Shown here piece by piece: positions 11,625 to 23,792 of a DNA stretch of 64,000 bases; the first letter of the stretch is position 1, and every line of letters starts with the position of its first letter. This stretch comes from Halorhabdus sp. CBA1104 (GTDB taxonomy: Archaea; Halobacteriota; Halobacteria; Halobacteriales; Haloarculaceae). The position numbers were made by a program, and so were the translations under genes. Location: assembly GCF_009690625.1 (NCBI RefSeq), contig NZ_CP033878.1:434001-498000 (forward strand). The letters run 5' to 3'. Below the pieces are notes generated by a model. The model searched no databases, was not told where the DNA came from, and saw only the letters and a list, made by a program, of their open reading frames with translations.

Positions 11625-14192
11625 ATGAATGATGCTACACCAATGGCAATTGATGATAAAGAGGGTGGCGACGAGGGTTCGCTCCGGTCGCGGGCGAGTT
11701 CCTTATTCGACGGGGATAGCGATCCAGAGGGAGGTGACGACGACGAACCCGACGGATACACGTGGATCGATTTTCGGCGTGAATTTCACGAGGGTGGACA
11801 GTTTGACCGAAGCGAATATCTCGGATTCGACCCACAGCGCACCGAGCAGTTGCTCGGGGAGTGTTCGAGCAACGCACGCCAACTCGACGACTATTTTCAG
11901 GATTTTATCGACCCCGCAACGACGCCCGTCCGTAAAGGTGAGTATCGGTGGGAGCACTTCAAACAGGAGTTTTACTACGATGGGGACGGCTCGCCACCGC
12001 GTGAGGACGACGGGACAAAGATCCCGTTCGATCGGGCCGCCCATCTCGGATTCGATCCCGACGAGACTGAAAGACGACTGAGCCACGGCCAAGACAAAGC
12101 GGAGGCACTGGTGGATCTCGTCGATCAGCGGACGGTCGACGTCAACCCGGAACTGGACGAAGACGAGTTCTTCTCGACGGTCGAGGGCCACACGACGATC
12201 GTCAATCGATACGATCTGGAGAAAGCCGTCCCGATGGAGAAAAAGCGCCACTTCGAGGAAGTCGAGCGCTACTGGGTCAACAAACCCTACGCTTGTGTCA
12301 TCTTGTTCCATTCGATAAAGGAGAACGAGCGTAAGTACTACGTCGTCGAGCCGACGCTGAACGCGCTCGAACTCGAGCTCAAGGACTTTCTCGGCAGTAA
12401 ACTCAAGACGGCGATCAAATACGCCGAAGAGGGCGTGGCTGTTGGCGACGACGCCGAGGGTCGGGCGGCGGTCATCGAGCGCGAAGCCCAGGCGCTCCTC
12501 AAACGGTACGATATCTACGACGAACCGAACACGGATCGTGTGGGCCAAACGACGGGTGACTGGGTAAAACAGCTGCTCGGCCTGGGCGAGGAGTCCGCCG
12601 AACCCGACCAGCTCGATCAGTCCACCGAACTCGACGGGATCGCGGCCCGACCGGAGCCGGCAATCCTCGAAGAAGACGCAGATACTCTGACCGAATACCA
12701 GGTCGAGAAACTGCTGTACCTGTTGAAGCGGGACTACATCGGCTACGGCAAGATCGATCCGATCAAACACGACATCAACGTCGAGGATATCTCCTGTGAC
12801 GGGTACAACTCCCGGGTGTTCGTCTATCACACCGACTACGAGCAGACGATCTCGAACGTCGAACACGGGGAGAGTGATCTGGACGACTTCGTCGTCAAAC
12901 TCGCCCAGCGCTCGGGCAAAGGGATCTCCAAACGGCAGCCACAGGTCGACGCGACCCTCCCCGATGGGTCGCGCGCACAGTTGACTCTCGGCACGGAAGT
13001 CTCCGATCACGGGACCAACTACACGATCCGGCAGTTCAAAGACGTCCCCTTTACGCCGATCGACCTGATCAACTGGAACACCTTCTCGCTGGACGAGATG
13101 GCGTTCCTCTGGTTGGCGATCGAGAACAACAAGTCGATGATCTTCGCCGGCGGGACGGCCTCGGGGAAGACGACCAGCCTGAACGCGATTTCGCTGTTCA
13201 TCCCCAGCAACTCCAAGATCGTCTCCATCGAGGACACCCGTGAGGTCGAGCTGCCACAGCGAAACTGGGTGGCTAGCGTGACCCGGCCTTCCTTTGGTGA
13301 CGACGAGAAAGGCGACATCGACGAGTTCGATCTGTTGGAGGCCGCACTCCGCCAGCGCCCGGACTACATCGTCATGGGCGAGGTTCGTGGGGAAGAGGGG
13401 CGTGACCTGTTCCAGGTCATGTCCACCGGCCACACCGGATACTCGACGTTCCACGCCGACACCGTCGGCGAGGTGATCAAGCGATTCACGACCGACCCGA
13501 TCAACGTCTCGAAGACGCTGTTTACGGCGCTGGATCTCGTCTCGATCCAGACCCAAACGCGCGTCCAGGGTCGGAAGGTTCGCCGGAACAAGACGTTGAC
13601 CGAGATCAACGAGTACACCCCGGAGAACGACGAGATCAACGTCAGGGACGTCTACCAGTGGCAGGCCGAGTCCGACCAGTTCCTGCAGATGGGTTCCTCA
13701 TCAACGCTCGAAGACATCAAGTTCGACCGTGGGTGGGACCAGGACACGTTGGACGAAGAACTGTTCATGCGCAAGGTCGTCCTCGCACATCTCATCGAGC
13801 AGGGGCTGAACACCTACACCGAGGTTGCCGCGACGGTCCAGGCGTTCATCAACGATCCCGAGACGATCATGACGTTGATCGCCAACGGCCAACTCGAACG
13901 GAGTCTCGAAGACCTCCGAGAGATGGAATCAGTTCAGATCACCGTCGATCCGGCCAAAGAGGAGATGGTGCCACGACCGGATCCACCCGACGAGTTGGCC
14001 GAGGAAGCCCAAGGCGTCATCGACAACGCCCAGCCGTTGTTCGACCGATACAAGGACCAGGCCAGATCTGACATCGTAAACGCACTTGCGGACGTGAGTG
14101 GCGACGAGTTGACCGAAGACGAAGACGACGGGACCGTCGACTTCGGTCAGTTCGTGCCCAAAGCGGGTGTCGAGGGACCTGAGAACGAATGA
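11625..14192 (+). CDS. pilB: Type IV pilus assembly ATPase PilB (GspE/TadA/FlaI family)
   Basis: An 855-residue secretion ATPase that powers pilus assembly at the cytoplasmic membrane. An acidic N-terminal region of roughly 330 residues precedes the motor. Walker A GGTASGKTTS lies near residue 509, the Asp box IVSIEDTREVELP near 535, Walker B YIVMGEVRGEE near 580 and the His box STGHTGYSTFHAD near 600. It ends in a four-base overlap with pilC. A second in-frame ATG at 11643 (MAIDDKEGG) fits the TATA-like aaccttttt near 11609-11617 better and could be the real start. Haloarchaeal archaellum ATPases are shorter and sit in arl operons, so this is a pilus locus. It leads an operon reaching to 20575. 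Confidence 0.93.
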   Translation: MNDATPMAIDDKEGGDEGSLRSRASSLFDGDSDPEGGDDDEPDGYTWIDFRREFHEGGQFDRSEYLGFDPQRTEQLLGECSSNARQLDDYFQDFIDPATTPVRKGEYRWEHFKQEFYYDGDGSPPREDDGTKIPFDRAAHLGFDPDETERRLSHGQDKAEALVDLVDQRTVDVNPELDEDEFFSTVEGHTTIVNRYDLEKAVPMEKKRHFEEVERYWVNKPYACVILFHSIKENERKYYVVEPTLNALELELKDFLGSKLKTAIKYAEEGVAVGDDAEGRAAVIEREAQALLKRYDIYDEPNTDRVGQTTGDWVKQLLGLGEESAEPDQLDQSTELDGIAARPEPAILEEDADTLTEYQVEKLLYLLKRDYIGYGKIDPIKHDINVEDISCDGYNSRVFVYHTDYEQTISNVEHGESDLDDFVVKLAQRSGKGISKRQPQVDATLPDGSRAQLTLGTEVSDHGTNYTIRQFKDVPFTPIDLINWNTFSLDEMAFLWLAIENNKSMIFAGGTASGKTTSLNAISLFIPSNSKIVSIEDTREVELPQRNWVASVTRPSFGDDEKGDIDEFDLLEAALRQRPDYIVMGEVRGEEGRDLFQVMSTGHTGYSTFHADTVGEVIKRFTTDPINVSKTLFTALDLVSIQTQTRVQGRKVRRNKTLTEINEYTPENDEINVRDVYQWQAESDQFLQMGSSSTLEDIKFDRGWDQDTLDEELFMRKVVLAHLIEQGLNTYTEVAATVQAFINDPETIMTLIANGQLERSLEDLREMESVQITVDPAKEEMVPRPDPPDELAEEAQGVIDNAQPLFDRYKDQARSDIVNALADVSGDELTEDEDDGTVDFGQFVPKAGVEGPENE

Positions 14193-14905
14193 GCCTCGAA
14201 CGACGCCAATCCGGCTCGCGGATCGGTGAGGCCGGGAGCCTCGGGGATACCTTCTACCCACTGTTCCGCCGGCTGTTCGACGAAGACGGGGACTTCGTTG
14301 CCAACGTCGAGACGAAACTGGGCGAGTCGCGGATGGCCGACAACGTCGAGATGTTCCTCTCGCGGGCGCTTGCCGTCGGGACGATCGCCGGGACGTCGCT
14401 CTGGCTGGTCGGCATGTTGCTCGGCTACCTGCTCGTGACGACGTTGTTTGCCGGTGGCGCACCGTCGTTTCTCGGACTCGGTCTTCCCGAAAGCATCCTC
14501 CCGATCGTCCAGGCACTGAAACTGCCGTTTCTCGTGTTCGTCTCTGGGCTCGTGTTCGGGACGATCGGCTTTCTGGTCGGGTTCGGTTCGCTGGTGTCGA
14601 TCCCGTACTTTCGGGCCAGCGCCCGGGAACGGGAGATCAACGTCATGCTTTCCGATGCCGTCTCGTTCATGTACGCGCTGTCGGTTGGCGGCCTCAATCA
14701 ACTGGACATTCTCGAATCGATCGCCGATGCCGACGACACCTACGGCGAAGTAGCAAAGGAATTCCAAAGTATCGTCCTCGAAACAGAGTATTTCGATACG
14801 GACTATCGGACGGCGATCCGTAACCAGGCGATCCGGACGCCCAGCGACGAGTTGAGCCAGTTCCTGACGGACATGCTCTCGATCGTCGACTCCGGGGGAA
14901 CATGA
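14189..14905 (+). CDS. pilC: PilC/TadC-like pilus platform protein, N-terminal part of a split gene
   Basis: This 238-residue reading frame holds the first half of an archaeal pilus platform (type II secretion F family) protein: a soluble N-terminus, two membrane segments near residues 75-95 and 105-130, and the first cytoplasmic T2SSF domain (SDAVSFMYALSVGGLNQLDILES). It stops at DSGGT inside an ATGA overlap with the next frame. Adding one G to the G5 run at 14894-14898 gives DSGGNMTDF and fuses both frames into one protein of 678 residues, the usual size for haloarchaeal PilC. The split is therefore probably a one-base sequence error, although a genuine two-subunit platform with coupled translation cannot be excluded. 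Confidence 0.85.
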   Translation: MSLERRQSGSRIGEAGSLGDTFYPLFRRLFDEDGDFVANVETKLGESRMADNVEMFLSRALAVGTIAGTSLWLVGMLLGYLLVTTLFAGGAPSFLGLGLPESILPIVQALKLPFLVFVSGLVFGTIGFLVGFGSLVSIPYFRASAREREINVMLSDAVSFMYALSVGGLNQLDILESIADADDTYGEVAKEFQSIVLETEYFDTDYRTAIRNQAIRTPSDELSQFLTDMLSIVDSGGT

Positions 14906-16224
14906 CGGACTTCCTCGAGGATCAGAAGGACAAGTACATGCGCACCAGCAAACAGGAGCAACAGCGCATGCTCGAGACTCTGGAGTTGTTCGGCGAGATG
15001 TACATGACGCTCTCGCTGTTTCCCCTCTTGCTCATCATCATCCTCGTCGTGATGTCGATGATGGGCAACGCGAGTACGCAGTTGATGTATATCACGGTTT
15101 ACGGGCTGATTCCGTTGATCAACGTCGCCTTCCTGGTGCTGGTGTCGACGGTCACGTCCGACGAGAGTTCGAGTGGGTACTTACAGCCGGACGACCCCGA
15201 GAAAGAGGCCTTGATCGAGGGCCAGACCAACCTCTTCGATCTCGGCTTGATCGAACGGTACAAGGGCGAGTACAGCGTTTTCGACCGGATTAACGACCGT
15301 GAAGGGACCCATCAAGCCCTCGAGATCATGCGGTCTCCGCACATCTTCTTCCGGGACAACCCACTGTACGTGCTCGCGTTGACTGTCCCGGCGACACTGA
15401 CGGCCCTGGTGATCTCCGTCCTGATGGGGTGGGCACCGACGTCCCTAGAAGGGATGATGAGCGATCCACTACAGGGAACGTTCTTCTGGCTGTACGTTCC
15501 GGCCTACATCAATTTCATTCCGCTTGCGATCTTCCACGAGTGGAACGTCCGTCATCGGAAGGCGATCATCGGCAAACTCTCCGAGAACCTCCGGAAACTC
15601 TCTAGTGCCAACGAGACTGGGATGACGCTGCTCGAATCGTTGAAAGTCGTCGCCAACACCTCGTCGGGCCGACTGGCCGATGAGTTCACGATCATGAACC
15701 GGAAAGTCCAGTACGGCACGAGTCTCAAACAGGCCCTGCGGGAGTTCAACAACAAGTATCACGTTCCGCGACTCGCCCGGACAGTCAAGCTTGTCAGCGA
15801 GGCTCAGGAAGCCTCGAACCAGATTCAGGACGTCCTCTCGACGGCCGCACAGGCAAGCGAAAATCAGGACGACATCGATCGTGACCGGAAATCCCGGACG
15901 CGGATGCAAGTCGTGATCGTGATTATGACGTTCCTGACGCTGTTGGGTGTGATCGCGATGCTGAAAGTGCAGTTCTTCGAGACGATGGCTGGACTCTCTC
16001 AGCAGGCCTCGAGTGCGGACGGGGGCAGTTCCGTCCAGAGTATCGGCTCTGACATGCCCGGTCCCGATCTCCTCTCGATGCTGTTCCTGCACGCCGTGAC
16101 ACTGCAGGCCATCTCCTCGGCCATCATTGCCGGCTACATTCGGAACGTGAGTCTCGTTGCCGGCCTCAAATATGCCGTTGCATTGTTGACAGTGACGCTC
16201 AGTGTCTGGATCGTTGTGAGTTGA
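14902..16224 (+). CDS. pilC: PilC/TadC-like pilus platform protein, C-terminal part of a split gene
   Basis: A 440-residue frame starting MTDFLEDQKDKYM, continuing the platform protein. It has two membrane segments near residues 35-80, another pair near 155-230, the second T2SSF domain around 245-320 (SENLRKLSSANETGMTLLESLKVVANTSSGRLADEF) and a C-terminal group of membrane helices. The T2SSF domains contact the PilB motor and turn ATP hydrolysis into pilin extraction and assembly. The missing N-terminal half is encoded directly upstream in another frame. Next gene follows after four bases. Confidence 0.88.
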   Translation: MTDFLEDQKDKYMRTSKQEQQRMLETLELFGEMYMTLSLFPLLLIIILVVMSMMGNASTQLMYITVYGLIPLINVAFLVLVSTVTSDESSSGYLQPDDPEKEALIEGQTNLFDLGLIERYKGEYSVFDRINDREGTHQALEIMRSPHIFFRDNPLYVLALTVPATLTALVISVLMGWAPTSLEGMMSDPLQGTFFWLYVPAYINFIPLAIFHEWNVRHRKAIIGKLSENLRKLSSANETGMTLLESLKVVANTSSGRLADEFTIMNRKVQYGTSLKQALREFNNKYHVPRLARTVKLVSEAQEASNQIQDVLSTAAQASENQDDIDRDRKSRTRMQVVIVIMTFLTLLGVIAMLKVQFFETMAGLSQQASSADGGSSVQSIGSDMPGPDLLSMLFLHAVTLQAISSAIIAGYIRNVSLVAGLKYAVALLTVTLSVWIVVS

Positions 16225-16228
16225 GCCA

Positions 16229-16732
16229 ATGATACGTCGGGATTCGAAGGACGCGAACGAGAAGGGTTGGCGAGAGGCCGACCAGCAGGACCGTGCCCAG
16301 ACGATGCAAGATTTCGTTCTGGGAATTAGCATCTTCATGATTGGCTTCATGTTCGTGTTGGCGCTGTTTCCGGGGTTGTTGACGCCGTTTGAATCGTCGC
16401 TCGACGGCAATACTGAGGCCGCAGCCGATCGCGTCACCGCCGAGATCGTCTCGAACTTCTCGAAGCCCGCCGAGCCAAACGTCCTGAACGCCACACGACT
16501 GAACCAGACGGTATTCAACGATTCTCGGTCGGTTGCGGACCTCAAGTCGCAATTTGGACTCCCGAGTGATACAGGACTCAACATAACATTACAGCGACTG
16601 GATGGGATGGCACATCTCAACGCGTCCGGCAATCCAGTCACGAACGATCGGACTGCCATCTCGGTGCGGATTGTCGATACCGGGTTCTCTGGCTGTGATC
16701 CGGGTTGTCGACTCGTCGTACGGACGTGGTAA
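16229..16732 (+). CDS. Pilus-locus membrane protein, pilin-like N-terminus
   Basis: A 167-residue protein with a charged N-terminus, then DRAQTMQDFVLGISIFMIGFMFVLALFPGL (a 20-residue hydrophobic helix preceded by a class III signal-like polar stretch) and a Thr/Asn/Asp-rich outside domain with several NxT/NxS sequons and a Cys pair near its end (GCDPGC). The layout fits a minor pilin or pseudopilin. Equivalent small proteins follow pilBC in many haloarchaea and belong to a DUF family of unknown function (DUF7287 from memory). Four bases after pilC and two before the next start. Confidence 0.8.
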   Translation: MIRRDSKDANEKGWREADQQDRAQTMQDFVLGISIFMIGFMFVLALFPGLLTPFESSLDGNTEAAADRVTAEIVSNFSKPAEPNVLNATRLNQTVFNDSRSVADLKSQFGLPSDTGLNITLQRLDGMAHLNASGNPVTNDRTAISVRIVDTGFSGCDPGCRLVVRTW

Positions 16733-16733
16733 C

Positions 16734-17399
16734 ATGAGACAGGAACGAACGCGTACATTGGGAACGGGGGACGATGACCGCGGACAGGCATTTACACTCG
16801 AAGGGCTCGTCGGTGCAATTCTCATTCTGACGGCACTGTGGTACGCGATGCAGGTCGTCATCATCACGCCGACGACTGGCGGCACTGTCGACCCGGCAGT
16901 CCGGGCAGACCTCCGCCAGCAAGCCGATGACACGTTGATGGTGGCTTCACAGTCCGAACGGGAGCGTCTGTCGACGCTCGTCCGAAACTGGTCACAGCAA
17001 AGTCGGACTTTCGCAGGCGCTGTCAATCCGGATGTCGGCTATGGGACCCAACGCATACCGGGTTCATTTGGAGATTTGCTGGTCGAGAATTTCGCTACCA
17101 GGGGCCGGCTGTACAACGTCGAGATGACGTATCTGGAAGGGGATCCGTCGAACGGAACGGGTGCCGTCACGGTCGCCTCACAGGGAACGCCCTCGGAGAG
17201 TGCCGTCGTAGCGACCCATCGGGTCGTCCTCTATGACAATATGACTCTTACGTCGCCGTCGGCTGGAGCGGCGGAATTGTGGGAGTACGATACCCACCCG
17301 ACGCGTAACCCGGGCAACAAGAGTGGGTACTACCCGGTGCCCAATGCCGTCGACGGTCCTGTCTACAACGTTTTGGAGGTGCGACTGATCGTATGGTGA
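16734..17399 (+). CDS. Pilus-locus membrane protein, pilin-like (second)
   Basis: A 221-residue protein starting MRQERTRTLGTGDDDRG (ATG 16734, just after the preceding stop; a longer in-frame start would overlap the previous gene). A single hydrophobic helix (AFTLEGLVGAILILTALWYAMQVV, residues 18-42) is preceded by a short basic/acidic tail, as in class III signal peptides. The remaining outer domain is Thr/Ser/Gly-rich. Likely a minor pilin or pilus-assembly accessory factor (DUF7288-type from memory). It overlaps the next gene by seven bases. Confidence 0.8.
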   Translation: MRQERTRTLGTGDDDRGQAFTLEGLVGAILILTALWYAMQVVIITPTTGGTVDPAVRADLRQQADDTLMVASQSERERLSTLVRNWSQQSRTFAGAVNPDVGYGTQRIPGSFGDLLVENFATRGRLYNVEMTYLEGDPSNGTGAVTVASQGTPSESAVVATHRVVLYDNMTLTSPSAGAAELWEYDTHPTRNPGNKSGYYPVPNAVDGPVYNVLEVRLIVW

Positions 17400-18445
17400 C
17401 TGATCGAATCGGGCCACGGGGCGAGCGCTTCGAGGCGGCCAGCCGTGGGCAGATGCTCTTGATCGGCGCAGTGCTTATCGCCGTCACGATTGTCGCCCTG
17501 GCACTGGTCATCAACACTGTACTGTACACTGCAAACGTCGGCTCAGCGCAGGAAGCGACCCAGATCAACGACGTCGACGAATTCACCTACGAAGCCACCC
17601 GCAATGCTCGCTCGATCATGCTCCGGGTGAACCACGTCCAGCGCAACCGGTCGATCTCAGACGTCAACGCCAACACGACACGGGCTCTCATGGAGTACAG
17701 CGACGGCCTGTCTCGTTCGTTCGCGACGACGGGAACAGTCTACGCGAACGTTACCTACAGTGGAACTGTGGTAAATGGCACGCGAATCGTCCAGTGGCAA
17801 GACCGGAACTTCTCGGAACCAGGTAACCCGACCAATGGGGACTGGGGAGTTGTACCCGGTTCAACGAGCGACATCGGTTGGTTCCTACTGAACGTGAACG
17901 TTCGAGACACGTCGACGACCGAGTCGACGATTTCTGTCACTCACGGGAGTGAGACGCTCAACTACACACTGAACCAATCAGCCAATGATAATCTCAGTGT
18001 CATTGTGACTGACGGCTCCGGATCCGTGCTGGACGCTGTGTCGTGCCAGTCGACCGGGGGGCGCGCTCTTGTAGATCTCTATGGTGGGTCGAGCCCAACC
18101 GGCGAGTGTACGTTCCCTGGCATCGAGGAGACACTCAACGCGCCCATGACCGTCGATGTCCACAACGGGACTGAAATCACTGGCCAGTACGCGATCGTGA
18201 CCAATCGAACCTGGGACGGGACTCCCTGGAACGGTCTTCCGACGTGCACTGCTTCTGGGGGAGAACGATGTCTCACACCAGCGGTCTGGCAAGGTTCGAT
18301 CGATCTCACTTATTTGAGTGAGACTGTCCAACTCAGCCAGCAACGTAACGTCAGCGTCTACGGGGGACCTCATGAACGACCACCAGCAAGACACACAGAT
18401 ATCGCACCGATCAGATTCGAACTGCCATCACCGCCTGGATACTGA
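17393..18445 (+). CDS. Pilus-locus membrane protein (DUF7261-type); real end probably 18375
   Basis: As read, a 350-residue protein with N-terminal helix QMLLIGAVLIAVTIVALALVINTVLY (residues 20-45) and a long outer domain rich in Asn-X-Thr/Ser. The last 25 or so residues (PHERPPARHTDIAPIRF) are unlike the rest and overlap the next gene by 74 bases. If one G is added to the G5 run 18362-18366, the reading ends instead as YGGTS with a TGA at 18373-18375 that overlaps the next ATG at 18372. This gives a 327-residue protein and the ATGA junction used elsewhere in the operon. I therefore consider the tail an artefact of a missing base. Role: probable minor pilin or accessory pilus protein. Confidence 0.78.
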   Translation: MVTDRIGPRGERFEAASRGQMLLIGAVLIAVTIVALALVINTVLYTANVGSAQEATQINDVDEFTYEATRNARSIMLRVNHVQRNRSISDVNANTTRALMEYSDGLSRSFATTGTVYANVTYSGTVVNGTRIVQWQDRNFSEPGNPTNGDWGVVPGSTSDIGWFLLNVNVRDTSTTESTISVTHGSETLNYTLNQSANDNLSVIVTDGSGSVLDAVSCQSTGGRALVDLYGGSSPTGECTFPGIEETLNAPMTVDVHNGTEITGQYAIVTNRTWDGTPWNGLPTCTASGGERCLTPAVWQGSIDLTYLSETVQLSQQRNVSVYGGPHERPPARHTDIAPIRFELPSPPGY

Positions 18446-19739
18446 CAGAGCACTTTCGACACCGATCACGCACACTCTCTCCCTCGGGATCACGACAGTA
18501 CTCGTCGTGGGGTTGTTGATCGCCGCCAACGGCTATCTGGCAGACCAAAAGCAGTACGCTTCCGATACCGTGATCGAGAGTGTCGGCACTGAACTGGCGA
18601 CAGAACTGGAAACCGTCGGCAGACTGGCCCGCAATAGCCAGCAAGCCTCGTTGCAGAGCAGCCAGCCACGAGATATCGTCTCGAACGCCTACTCCGTGGA
18701 GCTACGATCGCCAGGTGAGTGCACGCTCGGCATGGCGGCGAATGCGTGTCTGGTGGTGGAGATTACCCGAACTGGTGAGAACACGGTGCGTGAGTTTGCC
18801 GTTCAAAATCGCTCTGACGTCCGGCTCTCGATCGATCGCGTCGATCAATCTACGTTCGGCGTCTCGGCGACCAAGACGACGGGCGTGACGACTGACGCTG
18901 CCGTCGTCCCAGTCGAACAGGACCTACGTGTTGGCGTGGGAGCCGATGTCGGTCGATCCGGTGGCCAGAATATCACCAATCTACAACAGGAGGCGCCGAT
19001 CATCGAGAACTTCACCATCTCTCCGGGGTTTCCCACCAGCAACGAGACCGTCACATTCAGCGCAAACACGACAGACCCGGATGGAACTGTTGTGAACCAT
19101 ACGTGGTATATCGACGGCACGCCCCATCCCAACGAGGGCAATACTTTCACGACGACGTCTCCACTTCCCCCCGGTGAACACAATGTGACGCTCAAAGTTA
19201 CTGATAACGATGGACTAACGGCATCGAAACGGCCACGAGGAGAAAACGTCACGACATCCGGATTGACCGGGACGATCGTTGATTCAGGATCGGGATCAAG
19301 TGGAGATTACGTCGAATTAGAGCTAACAAATCACTGGCCAAAAGATGTTGTGTTGGGGGGATTAAACGTCGATGCCGGTTCAGGGTACGATTACATTCAC
19401 TATATCGAAGGGTCAGTAGATGGCGACGAAGATTGTAGATTTTTTGGATGTTCACCAGACACGCCAGATCCAGAGATCAAGATTGATTATACCGACGATG
19501 GGAGCTGGAACCACCCGCAAGAATTGAACGGTGCCGACCCAGCAACCCTCACTGATGGTGAGCGATACATCACTATCACGTCAACTGATATGATAGACCG
19601 ATCAGACACGGCGACGGTCCGCATTCGTGGCCTTCGTGGAGGGGGGGATCCAGCTGACACGACATTCCGCGTCGAATACTGGGTCACCATCGAGGGGGAA
19701 GATGTTGCAGTCTCGACGATCGTCAACGGAGGAAGCTAA
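18372..19739 (+). CDS. Pilus-locus membrane protein with PKD domain
   Basis: A 455-residue protein starting MNDHQQDTQISHRS. A pilin-like segment DRALSTPITHTLSLGITTVLVVGLLIAANGYLAD gives one membrane helix at about 35-56. Residues 60-200 form the domain shared with pilus-cluster proteins of the DUF7266 type. Residues 208-284 are a PKD domain (APIIENFTISP, then FSANTTDPDGTVVNHTWYIDG and LKVTDNDG). The last 170 residues are an acidic domain I do not recognise, with two Cys (CRFFGC), encoded by clearly AT-richer DNA (about 19260-19600) than the rest of the operon. The extra C-terminal modules look like an added surface-exposed region. Extended family members normally end near the PKD start, so an insertion or fusion is likely. 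Confidence 0.78.
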   Translation: MNDHQQDTQISHRSDSNCHHRLDTDRALSTPITHTLSLGITTVLVVGLLIAANGYLADQKQYASDTVIESVGTELATELETVGRLARNSQQASLQSSQPRDIVSNAYSVELRSPGECTLGMAANACLVVEITRTGENTVREFAVQNRSDVRLSIDRVDQSTFGVSATKTTGVTTDAAVVPVEQDLRVGVGADVGRSGGQNITNLQQEAPIIENFTISPGFPTSNETVTFSANTTDPDGTVVNHTWYIDGTPHPNEGNTFTTTSPLPPGEHNVTLKVTDNDGLTASKRPRGENVTTSGLTGTIVDSGSGSSGDYVELELTNHWPKDVVLGGLNVDAGSGYDYIHYIEGSVDGDEDCRFFGCSPDTPDPEIKIDYTDDGSWNHPQELNGADPATLTDGERYITITSTDMIDRSDTATVRIRGLRGGGDPADTTFRVEYWVTIEGEDVAVSTIVNGGS

Positions 19740-19741
19740 CT

Positions 19742-20575
19742 GTGAGACCGGATCTCTCTCGCGAGGGAACGACACCCGGCCAAGACAACGCCGACACGTT
19801 CCATAGCTCGGTGACATCCAAGGCACAGAGTGACCGGGCTGTCTCTGATCTGGTTGGGTTCATTCTCACGTTTTCTATCATCATGACGTCGGTCGTCCTG
19901 GTCTCAACAGTTGGCTTCGCCCAGCTCGACGATTTCAAAACGAACCAGCAACTCGACAATGCTGAGAGTGCCTTCGAGATTTTCGCCAACTCCTTCGATT
20001 CGATCGAAGAGGGCGGAGCTATCATTCGCCAGGAATCACTGGATCTCTACCAGGGAACCATCGGTATCGAGCGAGGGTCGACGGCGACGGTGACGCTCAA
20101 TCGAGCGAGCGGCGCCGATCGCTCTTTGACAGTCCCGCTGCACGCATTGGTGTATTCGAAAGGTTCAACGAACATTTCTTACGAGAGTGGCGCGACCTTT
20201 CGCGGGCGAGAAGATGGCGGAACGATCAACCAGCAGCCAGGCTTCGTCTGTACAGATAATGTGGCTGTGTTGTCGTTCGTGACGCTCCAGTCGCCAGAGA
20301 CATCCGCGAGCGGTGGCGGCGCACTGGAAGTGACAGCGGCAGCGAACGGAACTGACCTCCTGTATCCGATCAATCAATCCGGTCGGGGGTCTGTGAGTGA
20401 CGTTACTTCGATTTCAGTCTCGTTTGCCTCTGCGCGTGAAGATGCGTGGCTCGATCACTTCGACGAGGCAGCAAACTGGACGGTCTCGGGGCCAACAGCA
20501 CAGTGTGGGGCTTCAGACTCGCTCGATCGAGTCTTCGTTCGGCGACAGAACGTGACGATCGAGTTTGATCGGTGA
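19742..20575 (+). CDS. Pilin-like membrane protein (DUF7289-type), last gene of the pilus operon
   Basis: A 277-residue protein with a GTG start two bases after the preceding stop. The segment SDRAVSDLVGFILTFSIIMTSVVLVSTVGFAQLDDF (about residues 30-65) is a pilin/archaellin-type N-terminal helix with the polar residues that precede prepilin peptidase cleavage. The outer domain (TNISYESGATFRGREDGG and similar) is beta-rich with two Cys. This family is common at the end of haloarchaeal pilBC clusters. The N-terminal motif is nearly the same as that of the VWA protein encoded convergently only 40 bases away. Confidence 0.8.
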   Translation: MRPDLSREGTTPGQDNADTFHSSVTSKAQSDRAVSDLVGFILTFSIIMTSVVLVSTVGFAQLDDFKTNQQLDNAESAFEIFANSFDSIEEGGAIIRQESLDLYQGTIGIERGSTATVTLNRASGADRSLTVPLHALVYSKGSTNISYESGATFRGREDGGTINQQPGFVCTDNVAVLSFVTLQSPETSASGGGALEVTAAANGTDLLYPINQSGRGSVSDVTSISVSFASAREDAWLDHFDEAANWTVSGPTAQCGASDSLDRVFVRRQNVTIEFDR

Positions 20576-20614: not shown

Positions 20615-22915
20615 TCACCCCTCAATTCTGACATTATTGATATCGATGTCAACAATGCCGCTCGGTTTGGCGCTCTCCTCGCTCAGGCCAACCGTGTATA
20701 GCATCAACATGATATTGTCTGTCTCGCTATCGGCCTCCTGGGGAAAGTCGTAGGCGACAATCACTTGGTTACTTTCGAGCGTCAACCCGTTGGTCCTATT
20801 GTATAGGCCTCTATTTTTCATCACCGTGGTGAGGTTCGTTTGCCATTCAGACGTTTTCCAGTTGTTCGTCAGGTTATCTTCCAATAGGGTCGCATCCTCA
20901 CTCGTAAACACAGTCACCTCATCCTCGCCCAATTCTTTCAATCCAGACTTGTTCATCCGCGCACATCGAGTCACTGGCGCTGACTCTGTCCCATCCGTAC
21001 CATTGATGGCTGTCGTTTGACCTGTTGACACCCAATTATCACAACCCCAATCCGGGGGCTGTCCTGTCATCGCACTAAAGTTCACCATGTCTCCCTCGGA
21101 GACTGTGAACGCGTGGCTGAACGTCGACGGGGCGGTGGGATCATTGACGTTGAGGAACGTATTATTGCCCGTCGTGACGTTCGCGATGTCGTCGACGTTT
21201 CCGGTAATCTGTGGCGGATAGGCGGCTGTTTTACTCGATAGGTTCGTAGAGAGTGGGAGGTGTCCGACCTGTTTTGTACTCGTTATCTGTTGGCTGAGTG
21301 ATTCAAATGCCGATTCTAACGCACTGGCATTTGCGGCGTAGTAGTATTCTCCGCCCCCGTTGAGTGCGGTTTGGTTGAGAAAGCCGGGATTGAGGTCACT
21401 CTCGCTCGATCCGAATCCGATCGTGAACACCGTCGTCCCGGAATTGTGTGCAAGTGTTGCGATTCGTTTCGTCGCATCATCAGGGCCATTTTTTATATTT
21501 CCATTAATATAGAAATCTTGATTCTGGTTATAGCCCTCATTTTTCCCATCAGTCAACATGACGATATACTTGTTACGAGAGGCGTTCGACCGCGTATTCA
21601 GGATCTCGTTCGCTCGCCTCATCCCCGTTGCCGTATACGTGTTCGAATTGTATGTTGTCTTATTTGTGGTCGAGTGAAATTTACCGAAGTCACCAGTTAA
21701 TATACGACCATTCGATCGAAACGTGTGTGCCCTATACGGCCTGTTATACCCAGTACCCCTAAATCCAACGAGGCCAACCCGATCGCCGTCATCGAGATAG
21801 GTCGTGAAAGTTCGCATCGCCTGTCTGGCGTCTTCGTACTTTCGATCTCCGCCCGTGCCTGGTGAGGGATCTGCCATCGACCCGGACTCGTCGACGACGA
21901 ACACCACGTCGAGTGGCGGTCGCGTTATGTTCTCAGCACTGGATATTTTCTGCACGGATCCGATCTCGATGTCGTCGGCAACCGGTTCCGCGTAGACTGT
22001 GTATGAGTTATTTGCGTCCTTGCTAACGGAGATCCCGTCACTCGTCACCGTCACATCGTCCATGTAGCTGGCATTGGTCACGTCGACGACGTTGTTCTTT
22101 GCGTCGTTCGTTCGCTCGGGTAACGCGCTTTGGTTCAGGCGGATCGTCGCCGTTTCGGTGCCATCGTTGACAACGAGGTAACTTCCACTCCCGGCTGGCG
22201 GCGACGATCGAGTATCGTACCCTGTTTCGCCCGCCAGATGTTCGCCCCACGCCTGGTACATATCGCTCTGGATCCGCACTGTGACGTTGTCGGGCCGCTG
22301 ACAATCTCCCTGCAACAACTGGTTCATCGCTGTGGTCGAATCGGCCGCTGACGAAGTTGCGTTCAAGATAGCCTGGTTGTCCTCGGCGGCAACGCTACCG
22401 GTCATATTCGTCAGCGAGAGACTAACCTGTCCGTCCTGGACCGAGACAGTCGGTGGCGTTACGATCGACGCTGCCCCATTTTCCGAGAGCCGCCAGACGC
22501 CACCCGCTTCGTAGACGATCGTCGTCCCGGCCTCGTCTTCTAGCCGAATTGAATCGAGAGAGACGTTCGCTGAACAGGTTCCGTTGCCGTTGACTGTGAC
22601 GTTCACGTATCCGCTGTCCGTGACAAGATCGGGCGATCGCTGGACCGTCTGGTCTGTTTCGGCGAACGAAAAGCCGACCGCGCGCGATTCGCTTGCGGTC
22701 GAGAGCGTTGCCAACCGGGAGTCGACCTCCTGCATCATCGTCTGGGTCGCCTCCGCATCCTGTTGTTCCTGCAGCCCGCCGATTGCAGACGCCCCAAATA
22801 TCACGATCGCAACGGCCCCAGTCATGACGATGCCGACCAACAGGACGTAGCCGAGTAACTCGGACACACCCCGATCTGCACCCACATTCGACGCTATCAG
22901 CCCCCGGCGATTCAT
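20615..22915 (-). CDS. Pilin-like protein with von Willebrand factor A domain (candidate pilus adhesin)
   Basis: A 766-residue protein. Residues 14-48 form a pilin-like segment: DRGVSELLGYVLLVGIVMTGAVAIVIFGAS. Residues 50-330 are a beta-rich domain like that of the DUF7289 pilus proteins. Residues about 336-545 form a VWA domain with a complete metal-ion-dependent adhesion site: VVDESGSM (DxSxS, near 341), YTATGM (Thr) and MLTDGKNEG (Asp). About 200 further residues with four or more Cys follow. The start at 22915 is chosen because a TATA box (22947-22957) lies about 28-40 bases upstream; longer starts would precede the predicted transcript start. DNA for the VWA part is AT-richer than its surroundings. 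Bacterial TadG has a similar combination of pilus-type N-terminus and VWA domain, which suggests adhesion or pilus-tip function. Confidence 0.85.
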   Translation of the reverse strand: MNRRGLIASNVGADRGVSELLGYVLLVGIVMTGAVAIVIFGASAIGGLQEQQDAEATQTMMQEVDSRLATLSTASESRAVGFSFAETDQTVQRSPDLVTDSGYVNVTVNGNGTCSANVSLDSIRLEDEAGTTIVYEAGGVWRLSENGAASIVTPPTVSVQDGQVSLSLTNMTGSVAAEDNQAILNATSSAADSTTAMNQLLQGDCQRPDNVTVRIQSDMYQAWGEHLAGETGYDTRSSPPAGSGSYLVVNDGTETATIRLNQSALPERTNDAKNNVVDVTNASYMDDVTVTSDGISVSKDANNSYTVYAEPVADDIEIGSVQKISSAENITRPPLDVVFVVDESGSMADPSPGTGGDRKYEDARQAMRTFTTYLDDGDRVGLVGFRGTGYNRPYRAHTFRSNGRILTGDFGKFHSTTNKTTYNSNTYTATGMRRANEILNTRSNASRNKYIVMLTDGKNEGYNQNQDFYINGNIKNGPDDATKRIATLAHNSGTTVFTIGFGSSESDLNPGFLNQTALNGGGEYYYAANASALESAFESLSQQITSTKQVGHLPLSTNLSSKTAAYPPQITGNVDDIANVTTGNNTFLNVNDPTAPSTFSHAFTVSEGDMVNFSAMTGQPPDWGCDNWVSTGQTTAINGTDGTESAPVTRCARMNKSGLKELGEDEVTVFTSEDATLLEDNLTNNWKTSEWQTNLTTVMKNRGLYNRTNGLTLESNQVIVAYDFPQEADSETDNIMLMLYTVGLSEESAKPSGIVDIDINNVRIEG

Positions 22916-22946
22916 TGGTAGTGTACACATGGATCGCGTCGTAGAA

Positions 22947-22957
22947 GTATAAATGTA
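22947..22957 (-). promoter_or_regulatory. TATA box of the VWA-pilin gene
   Basis: Read on the minus strand the sequence is acatttatact, about 30 bases before the ATG at 22915. The spacing supports that start codon and a nearly leaderless message. Confidence 0.55.
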
Positions 22958-23024: not shown

Positions 23025-23792
23025 TCAGTCAGCGCCAGCGGATTGGTCCGGCCGGCACCGCACTTGTGTGACGTACGTTTGTGTCAATTCGACCAGGGCA
23101 GACCGAAACTCACTCTCAGTCGGATCAGTCGAGAGGTCTCGAAATTGCTCTCGAAAGTACTCGAACCCGAGGTTTGGCGCATCTGTGGCGGCCGCCTGTG
23201 CCAAATCGTAGATCCGATGGTCCGGGTCGGCCAGTCCGTGACGCTCGACCAGTGCTACCGCAAACGCTGCGTTGACAGCGGTGATCTCGGGATCGTCGCT
23301 ACCGCTCGACCGTTCCCACCCGACAGGCTCGCTGGGTCGGTCGATTAGTGCCCCCGCAAGCCCGGATTCGAAGAACCTCGCTAGCTTCGCTGTCGGCGAT
23401 ACGTCGATCCACACGTCGTCAGCGTAGATGTCTCGGGCGTGATTGATGATCTGATAGCACTGGGTGAGCGTTCGTCGCTCGACGCTTCGACCCGCAAGCG
23501 CGAGGAAGATAATTTCGTCCGTCGAAAGCGTATGTGATGGATGTCGCTGCTCGTGTTGGTGCATGTGGGCAAACTCGTGTAGCGTCAGCTCCCGTGCCAT
23601 CACACTGGTCGCTGCCTGCTGGGAGATACTCAGGATGTGGCCATCCGAACCGTGACTGACGCGCGTCCGCTCGTCGGGATCTCGGTGAATCGACACGGAC
23701 ACGGGCTGGTTGAGGCCGTATTCGCTCTCAAAGATGTCTCGCGCCCCGTAGAACGGTTCGGCTGGGCCGGGACCTTCGACCACCAATTCCAT
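23025..23792 (-). CDS. DUF5781-type protein with HExxH-like zinc site
   Basis: A 255-residue soluble protein. The segment [17 protein letters not shown] (about residues 69-85) has the HEFAH zinc-protease core followed by several further His residues, and a downstream helix contains HARDIYADD with a possible third metal ligand. I recognise it as the haloarchaeal DUF5781 family; no function is established that I know of. It has no signal peptide, so any peptidase action would be cytoplasmic. It is upstream of the VWA-pilin gene on the same strand with a 109-base gap, so it could be a separate unit. Confidence 0.78.

Follow-up and report, generated by a model that had tools for sequence, protein, structure and literature searches.

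Which role may be assigned to a haloarchaeal protein that joins a pilin-type N-terminus to a von Willebrand A (VWA) domain and is encoded beside the genes of a type IV pilus? The question is raised by a gene detected in a 64,000-nucleotide stretch of the genome of Halorhabdus sp. CBA1104, hereafter referred to as the window, whose product we call the VWA-pilin. In the literature found, hardly anything is described about tip adhesins on type IV pili of archaea, and pilus-linked archaeal VWA proteins have been treated as regulators.

Domain architecture of the VWA-pilin and its locus

The initial annotation, made from the DNA sequence, had proposed that a pilin-type N-terminus, a DUF7289 domain and a VWA domain with a full MIDAS metal site occur in one protein, and this composition was confirmed by Pfam and by the motif residues (Table 1). 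The match to DUF7289 (PF23960) scored 76.8 bits against a curated cut-off of 27; the archaeal Pilin_N family matched residues 15-61 weakly (Pfam E 0.015), and a hydrophobic stretch follows the prepilin motif in the alignment. Besides the ATG at 22915, from which the reading frame extends to the stop codon at 20615, a second in-frame ATG is located at 22930. A scan for bacterial-type promoters and terminators yielded nothing useful.

Table 1. Features of the VWA-pilin gene and the convergent pil operon (positions in the window).
Feature	Position	Strand	Basis
PilB-type assembly ATPase, 855 aa	11625..14192	+	T2SSE E 1.5e-31; weak PilB3 N/C domains
PilC platform protein, two overlapping ORFs (238 and 440 aa)	14189..16224	+	T2SSF matches; single ORF of ~680 aa in relatives
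Minor pilin DUF7287	16229..16732	+	Pfam
Minor pilin DUF7288	16734..17399	+	Pfam
Minor pilin DUF7261	17393..18445	+	Pfam
Modular minor pilin DUF7266: PKD and variable C-terminal beta-sandwich	18372..19739	+	Pfam, model
Short DUF7289 minor pilin, convergent with the VWA-pilin	19742..20575	+	Pfam
VWA-pilin (DUF7289 head, VWA, beta-rich tail; 766 aa)	20615..22915	-	ORF, Pfam, orthologue alignment, AlphaFold model
Class III signal peptide leader up to the predicted cleavage, R15-[G/A]16	22868..22915	-	Conservation; cleavage predicted
DUF7289 pilin head, residues 15-258	22142..22873	-	Pfam E 2.5e-21
VWA domain, residues 336-537	21305..21910	-	Pfam E 3.7e-15; Foldseek
MIDAS DxSxS (D342, S344, S346)	21878..21892	-	Invariant in 25/25 complete orthologues
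MIDAS T426	21638-21640	-	Invariant in 25/25
MIDAS D456	21548-21550	-	Invariant in 25/25
Exchanged segment, residues about 347-544	21284..21877	-	Limits mapped in a Halosimplex pair, transferred by alignment
C-terminal beta-rich tail, residues 549-766	20618..21271	-	No Pfam name; also in VWA-less relatives L111 and L112
TATA-like element TTTATA, 5' of the VWA-pilin gene	22948..22953	-	Sequence reading; putative function

The gene lies tail to tail with a pil operon whose last gene encodes another DUF7289-type protein, as had been described, the stop codons being separated by 39 bp. The N-terminal motifs of the two proteins (DRAVSDLVGF and DRGVSELLGY) are alike, and a profile comparison with hhalign shows homology between the large and the short DUF7289 families (E 3.5e-19 over 216 columns). 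A prepilin peptidase is encoded in the genome of Halorhabdus sp. CBA1104.

The two PilC reading frames overlap at an ATGA and are separated by a difference of one base from relatives, both halves being otherwise close to H. salina, and the split may represent a frameshift, a coupled split gene or a sequencing error. An internal stop has been reported in pilC2 of the Halobacterium salinarum pil-2 locus (PMC4292770). On the other side of the VWA-pilin gene, between it and the EF-2 gene, a DUF5781 gene with a HEFAH (HExxH) motif was found (23025-23792), which takes this position only in the nearest relatives (loci L037-L040).

Conserved linkage to a minor-pilin cassette

Orthologues were searched for with the protein in 146 genomes of the family and with a profile in 391 genomes of the class, with one genome per species in the sample. 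Fewer than 30 were obtained: the VWA-pilin occurs in 25 further haloarchaeal genomes, 19 of the same family and six of another one. In a draft genome the orthologue is broken into two ORFs (L050, 11985-14278) and was left out of the motif counts, which thus refer to 25 complete proteins.

In all 26 loci the VWA-pilin gene adjoins a five-gene minor-pilin cassette (DUF7287-7288-7261-7266-7289), in 16 of them also pilBC. The conservation of the pair in related genomes, which the initial annotation had put forward as a check, was thereby established, and since every VWA-pilin stands beside a minor-pilin cassette, the protein is not one that occurs only far from pil genes. The ten loci without pilBC nearby belong to genomes in which a PilB of this type is located at another place (66-80% identity for the best matches), which fits the published view (PMC4858521) that sets of pilins may act in trans in archaea.

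The VWA-pilin gene is convergent to the cassette in 23 loci and codirectional in three, where it is located directly downstream of the short DUF7289 gene (L044 and L099) or directly upstream of the DUF7287 gene (L055); one of these three overlaps the next cassette gene. Taken together, the prepilin motif and the linkage to pil genes support the assignment of the VWA-pilin as a putative archaeal type IV minor pilin with a class III signal peptide.

Invariant MIDAS residues and structural relatives

Although identity to the window protein drops to 31% among the orthologues, the residues of both motifs are invariant: R15 and a G or A at position 16 of the prepilin motif as well as all five MIDAS residues (D342, S344, S346, T426 and D456) were found in 25 of the 25 complete proteins. 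The VWA domain is at the same time the most variable domain of the protein. Its largest length changes fall into three loops (residues 347-359, 384-406 and 459-486), the first and the third of which come directly after MIDAS residues in the sequence.

MIDAS-bearing VWA domains are also present in non-adhesive proteins. The best profile matches of the VWA domain in the PDB include the group B Streptococcus pilus adhesin, Mfa5, RrgA and PilB of Streptococcus sanguinis, and a Foldseek search with the AlphaFold model retrieved SpaC, PitA, Mfa5, RrgA and PilB among other VWA proteins. The structure prediction suggested earlier for the VWA and N-terminal parts of the protein thus matched its VWA domain to those of pilus adhesins, among others. 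The model has a mean pLDDT of 78, and residues 1-50 are of low confidence, so that the pilin helix is poorly modelled. Two arms flank the MIDAS of both S. sanguinis PilB and RrgA (PMC8179133), and the variable loops of the VWA-pilin are presumably equivalent to these arms.

Exchange of the VWA segment

In some pairs of closely related proteins, divergence is concentrated in the VWA segment. Two Halosimplex orthologues, L047 and L048, share 94% identity in the head and 97% in the tail as opposed to 48% in the VWA domain, and the corresponding dS values are 0.14, 0.15 and 1.25. Their codons match near-perfectly through the DESGSM (DxSxSM) motif, diverge beyond it and come back into agreement at about residue 545, four-fold sites being identical at 249 of 278 positions outside this segment and at 15 of 44 inside (p 9e-15). 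The window protein and its closest relative from H. salina (L037) show amino-acid identities of 85% in the head, 47% in the VWA domain and 65% in the tail. Smaller divergence jumps were detected in the pairs L045/L046 and L041/L043, none in L038/L039 and L042/L043.

The phylogenies of the parts disagree accordingly. Both the pair of the window protein with L037 and the pair L047+L048 have 100% support in the head-plus-tail tree, whereas the VWA data reject them (AU p 0.0008 and 0.013, respectively). Conversely, the pairs of the VWA tree, L037+L040 and L048+L049, are rejected by the head and tail data (p < 1e-4); the join of L048 and L049 in the VWA tree has modest support (90/79).

These comparisons indicate that in some lineages the VWA segment alone is replaced by recombination, which is newly found here. 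Its boundaries are placed within conserved stretches, and homologous recombination is accordingly the probable mechanism. Fast divergence in place, for example under pressure to evade viruses with the tip as their receptor, would account for the pairs L038/L039 and L042/L043 without a jump in synonymous divergence. However, it is a very unlikely explanation, since synonymous sites jump together with the amino acids in L047/L048 and the VWA tree joins other partners than head and tail do. Virus pressure could nevertheless drive the exchange itself.

Silent VWA copies were detected neither in the Halorhabdus sp. CBA1104 genome, where the best hit was a 42% match within an unrelated 1,536-aa open frame, nor in the Halosimplex genomes searched. 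Due to this lack of copies, antigenic variation within one genome by means of silent VWA cassettes was rejected for these genomes, and the donors were probably other lineages.

Age of the VWA domain and alternative architectures

The initial annotation had taken the AT-richer composition of the VWA half as a sign that this half was gained. The drop in GC itself was recovered (59.7% in the head, 50.1% in the VWA and 52.0% in the tail coding region), with the correction that the AT-rich half comprises the VWA domain plus the beta-rich tail. A recent gain in Halorhabdus sp. CBA1104 was rejected: the domain is present throughout a 26-member clade that spans two families, to which it is ancestral, and a VWA with a GC content below that of the head is seen in 18 of the 19 orthologues compared, so that it is no sign of a recent gain in this species.

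In a tree of the DUF7288 pilins, the loci with a VWA domain group into a single clade (support 97/91), next to which L111 and L112 branch as sister pair. The latter encode, at the same place beside the cassette, a protein of head and tail without VWA domain, in which about 60 residues lie between head and tail (hhalign E 2e-9 for the tail). According to this tree the VWA domain was added once, or lost once in the sister, before the two families split. The recent event is the replacement of the VWA segment in some lineages and not the gain of the domain.

A large DUF7289 protein of some kind flanks 51 of the 52 cassettes examined, with or without a VWA domain, which indicates that the head has a function for which the VWA is dispensable. 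The head is followed by VWA and tail in 26 loci and otherwise by the tail only, by CARDB/Ig-like repeats, by DUF7308 or by DUF7305, and the assumption that every large DUF7289 protein carries a VWA domain was consequently rejected. The version with CARDB/Ig-like repeats has about 1,300 aa and was found beside the cassette in other genera (L155, 10501-14634; L164, L165 and L153); we read these proteins as putative stalk-like alternatives to the VWA-pilin.

The presence of a large DUF7289 protein at 51 of 52 cassettes is also what one would expect if this pilin were mainly an assembly initiator that starts or caps the filament with the small pilins, the VWA domain keeping the minor-pilin complex together by a metal-dependent contact, and the head-plus-tail proteins in the same position likewise agree with this explanation. 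It predicts, however, neither a swap of the VWA while head and tail keep 94-97% identity nor the large variation of the VWA loops, and we regard it as rather unlikely.

Further DUF7289-VWA proteins of about 800-1,370 aa are encoded away from the cassette (L103, L113, L114, L115, L104-L108), some of them arranged in tandem with a DUF7289 protein of 500 aa; these are perhaps independent acquisitions of a VWA domain. Another VWA domain occurs in a 1,535-aa protein in which no DUF7289 head was detected (L116, 6893-11500; G000:C1, about 2.6 Mb). The Halorhabdus sp. CBA1104 genome moreover carries the five-pilin cassette in a second version (L036, 9276-14340; G000:C1, about 1.819-1.824 Mb) with a convergent 560-aa DUF7289-DUF7308 paralogue and no pilBC within the 19 kb covered. 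It possibly provides an alternative tip for the same pilus machine.

The modular DUF7266 partner pilin

The DUF7266 pilin of the cassette is long in all 26 loci with a VWA-pilin and in one of the 25 loci without (Fisher 1e-13), the other 24 having a short version of about 150 aa. We rejected this co-occurrence as proof of a functional linkage, since the tree reduces it to one evolutionary event and the Fisher p-value is thereby invalid as linkage evidence.

Among the 24 partner pilins of VWA loci scanned with Pfam, a PKD domain was recognised in each, and up to 12 have a lectin-type family in the C-terminal part (LamG/ConA-like in nine, malectin in two, ricin-B in one). These lectin-type domains are interchangeable between species, which is likewise new here. 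For the DUF7266 pilin of the window, in which the PKD is accompanied by a beta-sandwich without Pfam name, no lectin family was recognised. Its model comprises a long pilin helix, a beta domain, the PKD and a further beta-sandwich, and the best Foldseek match was the carbohydrate-binding-module structure 2c26, to which the PKD is also matched by sequence; TM-scores were low because of the multi-domain layout. The C-terminal part is hypervariable in comparison with H. salina (22-45%).

Variable VWA and lectin domains might also serve to recognise neighbouring cells for mating, aggregation or antagonism, as a self/non-self or prey recognition tip similar to the Kil tips of Myxococcus. The exchange of the VWA segment agrees with this, as does the excess of cassettes over pilBC loci, which is expected for interchangeable tips and is exemplified by the two cassettes and the single window-type PilB of Halorhabdus sp. 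CBA1104. Since no gene for an effector or a toxin was noticed next to the cassette, we consider such a function unlikely.

Proposed function

The VWA-pilin is, in our view, rather likely to be a modular type IV minor pilin that acts as a metal-dependent tip adhesin. By analogy to S. sanguinis PilB/PilC and Caulobacter CpaL, we infer that prepilin peptidase cuts the leader, whereupon the N-terminal helix would pack against the adjacent cassette's short pilins and the resulting complex would start or cap the pilus built by PilB/PilC. Due to its bulk the VWA-pilin would be placed at the tip with the VWA domain exposed. The MIDAS would bind Mg2+ or Mn2+, and the domain would hold a ligand that belongs to another cell or to a surface polymer, with the DUF7266 pilin providing a second, often lectin-like, binding domain. 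Binding specificity would shift whenever homologous recombination via the conserved head and tail swaps only the VWA segment. The architecture and linkage, the invariant MIDAS and prepilin motif, the VWA exchange and the lectin domains of the relatives' partner pilins are the features of this proposal that are read directly from sequence. The ten loci without pilBC nearby, the poorly modelled pilin helix and the occurrence of MIDAS-bearing VWA domains in proteins that are not adhesins weigh against it.

A more far-reaching version is plausible though tentative: two swappable tip modules, VWA and lectin, on two pilins, with specificity evolving by exchange of VWA cassettes between lineages via the pilin scaffold, would constitute an archaeal module-exchange system for the recognition of cells or polymers. 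A VWA swap among relatives is what one would predict for the adhesive pilus end that determines specificity. The comparison offers a named candidate adhesin with its partner, relatives without VWA as a natural control, natural chimaeras whose differences lie mainly in the VWA, and conserved MIDAS residues to mutate. The targets of archaeal pili and changes in their specificity thereby become directly testable in cultured Halorhabdus, Halosimplex, Halapricum and Halorientalis.

Comparison with known systems

No description of an archaeal VWA pilin was found in open-licence full text, nor is DUF7289 named in any paper there. Makarova et al. 2016 (PMC4858521) describe the minor pilin arCOG02911 of PilB3/PilB4-type loci, variable in length (about 250-550 aa), as duplication-prone and common to both euryarchaeal systems, and this is possibly the same family as DUF7289. 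In the passages covered, VWA domains are named for regulatory ArnB/MoxR-associated proteins and for bacterial TadG, not for a fusion to a pilin.

The initial annotation had seen a parallel to TadG and to VWA-containing pilus-tip adhesins, which holds for the architecture and for the VWA relatives among tip adhesins, TadG itself being an analogy only. PF13400 (Tad domain) had no match in the Halorhabdus sp. CBA1104 genome, whereas Caulobacter, included as control, gave one, and the Pfam scan showed no Tad family up to E 0.1. As the Tad/TadE-like pilin domain was not found in the genome, membership in TadG was rejected.

In the VWA-pilin as in TadG/CpaL a pilin N-terminus is joined to a MIDAS VWA, a shared architecture that does not imply common ancestry. 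Caulobacter CpaL and Aggregatibacter TadG also resemble it in the DxSxS...T...D MIDAS, in a locus with small pilins and in the predicted tip position (PMC12607857). The VWA domain of CpaL is interrupted by a beta domain (PMC12607857), whereas that of the VWA-pilin is contiguous and followed by the beta-rich tail. As proposed for PilY1 and CpaL, a tip VWA could act as a tension or surface sensor that changes shape on contact and signals via retraction or the assembly state, adhesion being secondary. CpaL, which is built similarly, has an effect on surface sensing in Caulobacter (PMC12607857), but since neither a retraction ATPase nor a signalling gene was recognised in the haloarchaeal locus, such a role appears highly improbable for the VWA-pilin.

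The Kil Tad pilus of Myxococcus (PMC12075869) is similar in combining several minor-pilin complexes and variable exposed domains with one machine. It is, however, a predatory bacterial Tad system, and a change of the tip by intragenic VWA exchange is not described for it in the passages covered.

S. sanguinis PilB and PilC combine a MIDAS VWA on a type IV pilin with a ConA-like lectin pilin from the same locus (PMC8179133, PMC9934059). The haloarchaeal counterpart would be the DUF7289-VWA protein together with the DUF7266-PKD pilin, LamG/ConA-like in nine of 24 loci. In contrast to S. sanguinis, the pilin heads are of DUF families without a match to bacterial pilins in our scans, and unlike PilB the VWA-pilin has a C-terminal tail after the VWA, is associated with archaeal machinery and exchanges its VWA between species. 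Bacteria and archaea may have arrived at the same type of tip with two adhesins, starting from different pilin heads. The VWA-pilin is best read as a DUF7289 modular pilin that would work like PilB/PilC and CpaL, by analogy of architecture, without being one of them.
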